A stretch of DNA of 64,000 bases from Cristatella mucedo (taxonomy: Eukaryota; Bryozoa; Phylactolaemata; Cristatellidae). Below, one piece after another: positions 36,600 to 63,937 of the stretch; the stretch's first letter is position 1, and each line of letters starts with the position of its first letter. Where the stretch lies: contig WPIO01000008.1 of the NCBI GenBank assembly GCA_009760855.2, forward strand, positions 9,221,501 through 9,285,500. The letters run 5' to 3'. The notes below the pieces were generated by a model. That model was given only the letters and a program-made list of their open reading frames with translations. It did not search any database and was not told the DNA's origin. A program made the position numbers and the translations under genes.

Positions 36600-37454
36600 T
36601 TGCAGCGTGATATCAACAGCTGGTCATTCATGCAATGAATCCGATGTTAGAAAGCATTTTTAAACGGTCTCTGCCTTTACGGCTGACTGTTTCCTATTAC
36701 TTTTGCAGTGAGTGAGATAAGCAGCCATAGCTTACCTCGGCAGCTCTAGGTGAATGGCTTTCAAGTAACATTATTGATGTTCTGAAATTATTTATTAAAT
36801 TACTCTGCCTTCATCATTTTAGTGTATGCTTACGGAGATTACGGTGAAGAAACCGTAGCTCATAGAAGATCACCACATTTTCTTCTACACATATGTTTTC
36901 ATAATTTATAGATTTTATGATATATTGATTGTATATTAAGCAGAGCTTTGAACTGCAAGCTTTGCCGAGCCTCGGCAATTAGGCGTCTAATTCTGAACCG
37001 CGACTTCAAGCATTTACAATTAAAACTGTTTATTTTACATTTCATACATGTGTGTATAATAATATTTAATATATAAATATATATATATATATAAATATAT
37101 ATATATATATATATATCTGTAGCAGAGTGTTCTAGTCAGTTACGTCTGATATTACACCCTGTGCTAGCGACATTACTTAATGCAAGTTCGGCGTTTCAGG
37201 TTTCGCTCTGTTAGCTGCTTATTTAAGGGACGCCAAGTGCTTAGGGGGCAGTTAGTGCATATGCCTGCCTCTAATTCTGGTCTCCTTTGTATGCCCGAAT
37301 ACCGTTGTGTCTGTTTAGGCGCCCCCCATTTAGGCGCCCACAGTGATGAGTGGCTCTTCACCCAGTCTTGTTAGACAGCTTTGCCCTGTGCTAGAGACCT
37401 GTTATCGATCGGTCACCGACTGTGAAAGTTGGTACCTCTTTGATTCTTTGCCAG
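36600..37454 (+). promoter_or_regulatory. Upstream block duplicated with DHPS
   Basis: Collinear with 55510-56248 before the second DHPS copy. Shared blocks include CATGCA(A/G)TTGAATC-like sequence, TCTCTGCCTTTA(C/T)(G/C)GCTG, TTTGCCGAGCCTCGGC(A/G)ATT and TATGCCTGC(C/A)TCTAATTC. It probably holds the 5' UTR and its intron. Copy 1 has a (TA)n expansion (37077-37118) that copy 2 lacks. Confidence 0.65.
37077..37118. repeat. (TA)n microsatellite
   Basis: About 42 bp of AT dinucleotide with one AAATAT interruption, upstream of DHPS copy 1. Confidence 0.95.
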
Positions 37455-37460
37455 ATGATC

Positions 37461-62400: not shown

Positions 62401-63937
62401 TGGCAAATTGACGGCTGATGTGTTGTATTCTTTAAAAAAACCCAGTTTCTTAGCATATCAGACATACAGCAGTTGATCGGACTTCAGTGAAAAGATATTT
62501 TGTTGTCCACTCTTCATTGAACACTCGGCACTCACTGTCTACTTTTCTTTTATTTGGTCCGCTCATTTTTAGTGAAGGGCTGAAAGTACAAAGCAACAAA
62601 ATGAATTAGAGAGTAACCGTAATGCATCATTTTCAAGGGTCAGTGTCTTCAGGGTGTGCCATCTGCTCAGGAAAGATGGGAATTAAAGCTAGGTAAAACG
62701 ATTGAGGTGTCTTTGTAATAGAATTTAATTTAATAATATAACTTGGACGAGTTCGGCGGATTGAAAAGACCAACGGGCCTTATATGGCTCGCGGGCCATA
62801 GTTTGCCCATATCTGCTATAGTGGCACGGCTTGTGGCTAAGCCAAGGTTTTGTCACTCACATTTATGTTCCTTTATTCTCTTTCTCCAGGCTACCTATCT
62901 CAACTAATTCCTAATCAGGCTGGGCATAATATCACCACTCATCTGACTCAAATTGATCGTAGCTGTGCCTTGAACTAACTTCAAATCCTTTGGAGGTCGT
63001 GCCTTTAGTTGATATGCTCCCAAACCCTGTAGCTCAGTCCTGACTGACGTCATTGCATCCCCCTCAGTAGGTGGTATTTAAAAAAGAAGCCATGTGCACA
63101 CTTGTTCCTCAAAGCATTTGCTGGATCCGTGGGAATTATGATATGTGTGGTTATGATTAGAATGATATCACTAACCTTGTTGACTTACATCCCTTACAGC
63201 TCATGTAGAGTGAACAGTGAATGTAAAGTAGATGGAATTTAAGGTCTCTGTGAGCGATATGCAAATGTCTTAATGTTATCTTATGGCAAGCCGTCAACTC
63301 TGCTATTCAGGTTATTCAAGTGAAGCTGTTTACCCCCTCCTTTCCCAGTCTCCTTCGGTCGTTTACTTTTGGTTTCATGTAGCATCTAATTTGTAGTGAT
63401 TTCTTTGGCAATCTGCCAACTTAGGGTGTGCCTCTTTTTCTCCGTGTGTTTTCAGTGATTTCTAATGCACTACCGGTTTTCCCAGGCTCGGAAAATACTT
63501 TGGTTGAGCATAATAATTATAATAAGACATTTGTGTAGCACAGCACAAAACAAAAAACAGGATTGCAGTCTTGAGCCATTGTCCGTGCCAAGGCTGCTTT
63601 CTCTTGACTAAGCATATATAACCTCCGGTTCTTGCTAGCCTATCATCCCGTCCGCTGCATTGTCTCCTGTCGATGTGTCGATAGAACCCTTTGCATTCAT
63701 GTACCATTTACTGCTCAGGTCGATTGTCTAGTGACAACTGCTGGAGGCGTCGAGGAGGACATAATCAAGTGCCTGGCGCCAACGTACGTCGGCGACTTCC
63801 GGCTCGACGGAGCCGAGTTGCGTGCACTCGGCATGAACCGCATCGGCAACCTGCTGGTGCCCAACGACAACTATTGCCGCTTCGAGGACTTCCTTCTTCC
63901 GCTGCTAGACACTGTACTGGAAGAGCAGCGCACACAG
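56255..63937 (+). CDS. DHPS: Deoxyhypusine synthase paralogue, partial (copy 2, exons 1-3)
   Basis: Exons 56255-56446, 57948-58112 and 63719-63937 have exactly the lengths (192, 165, 219) and phases of copy 1 exons 1-3 and encode 192 residues with about 24 differences by eye (near 87% identity). Exons 4-8 lie beyond the window. The reading frame is intact and substitutions are mostly conservative, so it is under constraint or recently duplicated. Conserved: [32 protein letters not shown] and NLLVPND.YCRFEDF. Odd: FQATNFG of copy 1 and human is FQATNFA here. The active-site lysine exon cannot be seen, so catalytic competence is undecided. Copy 2 could be a second enzyme, a regulatory subunit or a neofunctionalised form. 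Confidence 0.93.
56809..56885 (+). repeat. SINE family 1 head fragment in copy 2 intron 1
   Basis: GTAATGGCTCAGTTATGG and CCAGGGTTCAACACTTGAG resemble the A and B boxes of the 38.0-kb SINE. The body is lost. Confidence 0.55.
57190..57345 (-). repeat. SINE family 2 (tRNA head, L2 tail), antisense
   Basis: The reverse strand has a GCTCGAGCCC-type B box, AAAGCCCCTGGATAGACTAA and ATTCTCTTAAAGAGCATGTG. In copy 2 intron 1. Confidence 0.78.
57948..58112 (+). CDS. DHPS: DHPS copy 2 exon 2
   Basis: 55 codons, [20 protein letters not shown], then [20 protein letters not shown]. Only four residues differ from copy 1. Acceptor and donor (CTTCTAG, GTATGT) are identical to copy 1. Confidence 0.96.
58395..58587. 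repeat. (TA)n microsatellite, about 190 bp
   Basis: Uninterrupted AT dinucleotide tract in DHPS copy 2 intron 2. All crossing frames are Ile-Tyr artefacts. Confidence 0.98.
58588..60524. other. Copy 2 intron 2, nothing recognised
   Basis: A 103-codon frame at 58806-59117 has no recognised similarity. No repeats identified until the hAT element. Confidence 0.4.
60533..62815 (-). mobile_element. hAT-Charlie-type transposon with target duplication
   Basis: Left end CAGGGGTAGGCAAATTTTTT and right end (reversed) CAGATATGGGCAAACTATGG are hAT-Charlie termini; subterminal CTCGCGGGCCA occurs at both sides. The 8 bases outside are CTTTAGTG (60525-60532) and CTATAGTG (62816-62823), a target-site duplication with one mismatch and the hAT pattern (T at 2, A near 6). 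Length 2283 bp. It is inserted in copy 2 intron 2; copy 1 lacks it. Confidence 0.9.
60848..62566 (-). pseudogene. hAT-Charlie transposase (GTF2IRD2/ZBED-like), broken
   Basis: Reading starts at ATG 62566 ([20 protein letters not shown]), the usual N-terminus of these transposases, and stops within 40 codons. Further pieces: [20 protein letters not shown] (62048-62338), the catalytic-core piece [20 protein letters not shown] read across 61800-61870, [14 protein letters not shown] (61513-61743) and the C-terminal [18 protein letters not shown] (60848-61087), the hAT dimerisation motif. Several frameshifts and stops make it inactive, though most domains remain recognisable. Confidence 0.85.
62885..63275 (+). 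mobile_element. L2 LINE 3' fragment
   Basis: The plus strand follows the end of the L2 frame (equivalents of YLSxxxPxQA, NxKSFGxRAFxxYAP and LFLxxAFAGS), then the 3' UTR and GGTCTCTGTGAGCGATATGC. Broken by stops. Confidence 0.75.
63276..63718. other. End of copy 2 intron 2
   Basis: From about 63590 it is collinear with copy 1 (GCTTTCTCTTGACTAAGCAT in both), ending in the acceptor TTACTGCTCAG. Confidence 0.6.
63719..63937 (+). CDS. DHPS: DHPS copy 2 exon 3
   Basis: 73 codons, [20 protein letters not shown], then [20 protein letters not shown]. About eight residues differ from copy 1. At several of these (GGV, APT, RIGNLL, PNDN) copy 2 is closer to the human sequence than copy 1 is. Donor GTTAGA. 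Confidence 0.96.

Follow-up and report, generated by a model that had tools for sequence, protein, structure and literature searches.

We consider it probable, with good confidence, that an old tandem duplication has left the bryozoan Cristatella mucedo with two complete and catalytically competent deoxyhypusine synthase (DHS) genes, both of which have been kept by selection. The window analyzed was a 64,000-base stretch (contig C676:9221501-9285500) of a 12.8-Mb contig, in a genome assembly of 572 Mb and 688 contigs; positions within this window carry the prefix w. Both genes are complete and have intact splice sites and a conserved active site, and the dN/dS between them is low. We propose that a whole DHS gene, together with its upstream region, was duplicated locally long ago and that purifying selection then retained both genes. 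The predicted product of each gene most likely uses spermidine and NAD to form deoxyhypusine on eIF5A, and the products may assemble as homotetramers or as mixed tetramers. The two copies were most likely kept for extra dose or for separate expression control, and the effect of the duplication is likely, as judged from sequence, to be on dose or regulation and not on new chemistry. An earlier note on this DNA had proposed both a tandem duplication and, among other roles, a dead regulatory subunit; the duplication part stands and is now complete, while the dead-subunit part finds no support.

Copy 1 lies entirely within the window, on the plus strand, with eight coding exons that span w37461-50843 and encode 366 residues (exon 1, w37461-37652; exon 2, w39309-39473; exon 3, w44808-45026; exon 4, w45298-45384; exon 5, w46399-46504; exon 6, w48457-48560, with the KHH motif and the equivalent of His288; exon 7, w49508-49633, with WGKI and the equivalent of Lys329; and exon 8, w50742-50843, with the stop codon). 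Copy 2 has the same orientation, and its exons 1 to 3 (w56255-56446, w57948-58112, and w63719-63937) fall within the window at w56255-63937. The head-to-tail arrangement with starts 18.8 kb apart, and the equal lengths and phases of the first three exons, had been claimed before and were confirmed: the coding starts, taken at the ATG common to both copies (w37461 and w56255), are separated by 18,794 bases on the same strand, and exons 1 to 3 measure 192, 165, and 219 bases in each copy, are all in phase 0, and have AG/GT boundaries. Copy 1 has an additional in-frame ATG two codons before the shared one. Extension beyond the right edge of the window, which the earlier note had called for, recovered exons 4 to 8 of copy 2 at contig positions 9285704-9285790, 9288812-9288917, 9291165-9291268, 9294375-9294500, and 9295510-9295611 (9285704-9295611 overall). 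These exons were open and contained both the WGKI lysine and the KHH histidine; stop codons within them, which the note had held would count against its reading, were looked for, and no internal stop was found. The reading frame of copy 2 is open over 366 residues. Each coding sequence comprises 1,101 bases in eight exons, with lengths identical from copy to copy and with GT-AG introns.

In the interval between the copies, a Pfam scan of a six-frame read-through of w50850-55500 returned only matches below the cut-offs. A full-length U6 snRNA match (73.7 bits) is present on the minus strand at w52993-53099 and abuts a tRNA-related SINE-like repeat, which is also present elsewhere in the window; the combined unit, which occurs once, looks like a U6-SINE chimeric insertion. 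G+C-rich stretches lie upstream of copy 1 (w30001-33000; CpG observed/expected ratio of about 1.3) and of copy 2 (w54001-55000; about 1.07). Intron 2 of copy 2 contains the remains of a hAT transposase on the minus strand (w60848-62605), with a PF05699 match at 60848-61165 and a remainder that, judged by eye, is presumably GTF2IRD2/ZBED-like.

Similarity between the two loci extends outside the exons. Collinear blastn blocks of copy 1 and copy 2, respectively, paired w36606-37716 with w55518-56510, w38460-38758 with w56696-57002, w39094-39560 with w57732-58191, and w44670-45093 with w63580-64000, and thereby covered the upstream region, introns 1 and 2, and exon 3. The similar upstream regions of copy 1 (w36606-37460) and copy 2 (w55518-56254), both on the plus strand, were compared further by local alignment of w36606-37440 with w55518-56237, which gave a score of 73, whereas 200 dinucleotide shuffles of one side averaged 12.2 and reached 17 at most; the best alignment spanned w36606-37026 and w55518-55937. 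The upstream similarity is real and far above the shuffled controls. Intron similarity is patchy, with collinear blocks accounting for 1,809 of the 12,282 intron bases of copy 1 in the completed genes, so the collinear intron and upstream similarity described in the earlier note was upheld, strongly for the upstream region and in patches for the introns. The same orientation, the common exon structure, and the similarity outside the exons are all as expected for tandem duplicates.

The two proteins are identical at 330 of 366 residues (90%), and their coding sequences are 88.6% identical. The Nei-Gojobori estimate of dS was 0.457 (bootstrap range, 0.349 to 0.576) and that of dN was 0.049, giving a dN/dS of 0.107 (bootstrap range, 0.068 to 0.163). 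Had one copy evolved without constraint after the split, a pairwise dN/dS of roughly 0.5 or more would be expected. The far lower observed value, set against this expectation from established theory, indicates constraint on both copies, and we infer that both probably stayed under purifying selection, with the reservation that a pairwise ratio gives no rates for each copy. The comparison of dN to dS, which had been suggested as a check, thus points to two constrained genes. Exon 4 (w45298-45384; contig 9285704-9285790) is unusually similar between the copies, with 1 of 29 codons differing compared to 113 of 366 overall (hypergeometric P value = 0.0002, uncorrected for eight exons). Intron 3 and the start of intron 4 are 76 to 88% identical in 50-column windows, whereas elsewhere the introns align in patches. 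Local gene conversion around exon 4 is suggested by this pattern; it can only be suggested, because the longest identical codon run was not unusual, being reached in 258 of 2,000 permutations.

Differences between the proteins are crowded at the N terminus, where 9 of the 36 amino acid differences fall within the first 25 residues (hypergeometric P value = 0.0002). According to PMC10042821, residues 11 to 17 of human DHS form a ball-and-chain that masks the active site, and the crowding lies around this element. As these 25 residues include the N-terminal gate, the copies may differ somewhat in function. This crowding, together with the far-diverged flanking and intron sequences of the two copies, would fit a division of expression in which equivalent enzymes serve different tissues, stages, or compartments and the N-terminal gate is tuned differently in each. 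We regard such a division as possible, though distinctly short of an even chance, because the N-terminal region is also weakly conserved when copy 1 is compared with the human chain, and the crowding may reflect relaxed constraint. A more elaborate proposal, in which mixed tetramers with differently tuned ball-and-chain gates would set the entry of eIF5A to the active site, seems to us unlikely. If true, hypusination would be regulated through a pair of live subunits, a mode of DHS control not met in the literature covered.

Copy 1, and not copy 2, belongs to a larger tandem array. Self-comparison of contig positions 9060001-9315000 gave 580 self-hits, from which those of at least 200 bases with low repeat depth were retained and all others were dropped. 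The array (contig positions ~9040001-9263195) consists of two tandem segments of roughly 100 and 90 kb that lie to the left of, and extend into, copy 1, and within the window its blockwise counterparts occupy approximately w1-41695 on the plus strand. Its blocks are mostly 76 to 91% identical, and it includes an inner duplication of about 14 to 19 kb. An additional 20 kb to the left, compared under a similar filter, matches the right-hand end of the segments and indicates at least part of a third segment; the extent given for the array is a lower bound, its left limit lying beyond the region compared. Copy 1 sits at the right edge of the array, and copy 2 lies outside it. Exons encoding DOMON and copper type II ascorbate-dependent monooxygenase domains recur in the segments (w632-817 and contig positions 9075293, 9101313, 9110138, 9117367, 9177416, 9206311, and 9214736), and we take them to belong to the DBH/MOXD-like family. 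DOMON exceeded the cut-off at two places and fell just below it at a third, the copper monooxygenase N domain was just below the cut-off, and the C domain was well over it at w632-817. tblastn found counterparts of these exons in the other segment, and the DOMON copy at 9177416 contains a stop codon. Elsewhere in this part of the window, a Pfam scan of the plus strand of w10000-19999 gave no matches. A long open reverse transcriptase frame (PF00078) lies on the plus strand at w21815-23479 and has diverged relatives in other parts of the window and in the array, and a unit of about 58 bases is repeated in tandem in about eight diverged copies at w25908-26381.

Close to the ends of the segments are two truncated remnants of DHS. 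Remnant A, which extends to about 9069.5 kb of the contig, matches blocks between w34000 and w40920 but is without the exon 1 stretch (positions 9066310 and 9066315 match w37279 and w38463) and has lost the exon 2 splice donor. Remnant B (9167825-9172302) retains 24 bases from the end of exon 1 and an exon 2 whose reading frame does not fit its acceptor; its last block in common with copy 1 ends at w41695 (contig position 9263195), in intron 2 of copy 1. Past the remnants, the segments match one another again from 9070589 and 9172386, and DHS similarity ends 84 bases before this point in remnant B and about 1.1 kb before it in remnant A. The two remnants likely have a single break inside DHS intron 2 in common, as far as these boundaries indicate. 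In the exon 2 region, copy 1 is 66% identical to copy 2 and 88 to 89% identical to each remnant and, because of this difference, the split between copies 1 and 2 is judged to be older than the splits between copy 1 and the remnants and hence older than the duplication of the array. A tree of this region separates copy 2 widely from copy 1 and the two remnants, with a support of only 62 for the order among the latter three. The array illustrates that tandem duplication around another gene family can leave truncated fragments of an essential gene behind and yet spare a full copy.

Neighboring segments of ~90 to 100 kb that are mostly 76 to 91% alike could in principle hide a false duplication in a hyperdiverse species, and the two DHS copies might then be uncollapsed haplotypes of one locus, an outcome that the earlier note had named as fatal to its reading. 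We consider this very improbable. The copies lie head to tail, 18.8 kb apart, on one contig, and a dS of 0.46, together with so small an alignable fraction of the intron bases, appears unlike two alleles.

Both products of the proposed duplication are recognizable as deoxyhypusine synthases. The two copies matched PF01916 at 402.2 and 401.8 bits (cut-off, 27), and copy 2, the only one scanned, exceeded the cut-off of the TIGR00321 deoxyhypusine synthase model (349.6 versus 304.25 bits). With four other NCBIfam deoxyhypusine synthase models, the score of copy 2 was under the cut-off, in one case narrowly (363 versus 380 bits). Copy 1 aligned without gaps over 352 residues, at an offset of 5, to chain 9id2_A, which we take to be human DHPS. 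Identities to this chain numbered 234 of 352 for copy 1 and 237 of 352 for copy 2. Of the 33 differing sites that this alignment includes, 9 have the human residue in copy 2 alone, 6 in copy 1 alone, and 18 in neither, so neither copy looks degenerate. Eighteen human residues named in PMC10042821 and PMC7581365 were checked, and the chain agreed with the named residue at all 18. Fifteen were the same in both copies (E137, N164, N173, Y176, S240, D243, F247, Y250, F272, H288, L295, D316, E323, W327, and K329). The human-equivalent Q83 was replaced by Ala and I271 by Val in both copies, and Y305 was kept in copy 1 and replaced by Phe in copy 2. The five active-site residues E137, D243, H288, W327, and K329 (human numbering), all of which were mutated in PMC10042821, were kept in both copies, and the catalytic Lys329 within WGKI was present in copy 1, copy 2, and the aligned human chain.

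These residues bear on two further readings, each of which we regard as highly improbable. The first is that one copy is catalytically dead and serves to activate its partner, the arrangement known from trypanosomatids. The enzyme is a tetramer with two paralogues here, and such a pair has a trypanosomatid precedent and possibly one in Entamoeba (PMC3663545), but neither copy lacks any of the five active-site residues mutated in PMC10042821, and neither has lost the catalytic lysine, the change that marks the dead paralogue (DHSp). Moreover, the dead paralogue of the precedent is 30% identical to its partner in T. brucei, compared to 90% here. With every tested active-site residue kept in copy 2, the trypanosome-style regulatory subunit put forward earlier is unsupported. 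The second is that one copy has shifted to a new polyamine reaction, as DHS did in giving rise to plant homospermidine synthase (PMC5889531), and related NCBIfam polyamine enzymes do match copy 2 weakly. Against this, both copies retain seven of the nine eIF5A-contact residues tested and carry the same replacements at the remaining two (Q83 and I271), dN/dS is low, and the derived sites are shared out between the copies (9 versus 6). Copy 2 scored 81.3 bits against a cut-off of 450 for the homospermidine model and 114.9 bits against 500 for the bis-guanidino-aza-nonane model, although some DHS models were missed as well. The new polyamine chemistry raised in the earlier note thus draws no support from the sequence.

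A whole-genome protein search with DHS listed 18 matches, all on the same contig, which correspond to the eight exons of each copy and the two exon 2 remnants; no further full DHS copy was present among the best candidates, which are those that such a search scores. The corresponding search for the eIF5A N-terminal domain found one locus, on contig C656, in two exon pieces (2 matches from 5 candidates). This locus has the hypusine loop, its open frame reading STSKTGKHGHAKV, and the eIF5A substrate appears from these matches to be single-locus in this genome. With DHS at two full genes and eIF5A at one locus, the enzyme is doubled and its substrate apparently single. A single essential protein is the target of hypusination, and DHS is often single-copy; a long-kept, apparently live DHS pair in a genome with apparently one eIF5A locus would make this a natural case in which to study dose or gating limits on hypusination in an animal.

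Each copy resembles human DHPS (PF01916 and TIGR00321) in its ungapped 352-residue alignment and its active-site residues and differs in a divergent N terminus, in the replacement of Q83 and I271 in both copies, and in Y305F in copy 2. Humans have one DHPS gene, whereas there are two complete tandem genes here. Plant homospermidine synthase likewise arose from a changed copy of a DHS gene, its aminobutyl acceptor having changed from eIF5A to putrescine; in contrast, the bryozoan sequences give no sign of changed specificity. The trypanosomatid DHSc/DHSp system likewise has two DHS paralogues per genome, but in the bryozoan pair the catalytic lysine is kept and identity is 90% rather than 30%. 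The titles and abstract openings searched, with most subscription journals outside their coverage, yielded no animal tandem DHS pair. The view taken in the earlier note that animals normally have one DHPS gene may nevertheless be too strict, since Nguyen et al. 2013 (PMC3663545) indicate that, outside trypanosomatids and Entamoeba, eukaryotes seem to carry either a single gene or close duplicates in which the catalytic lysine is retained. According to the same source, T. cruzi has two DHSc genes, which are close paralogues, as here. Compared to other eukaryotic DHS duplicates, the genes described here are intron-bearing and arranged in tandem in an animal, with no dead third paralogue among the best candidates of the genome search. 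Close DHS duplicates that keep the catalytic lysine have already been reported, and the C. mucedo pair is a well-preserved further example.
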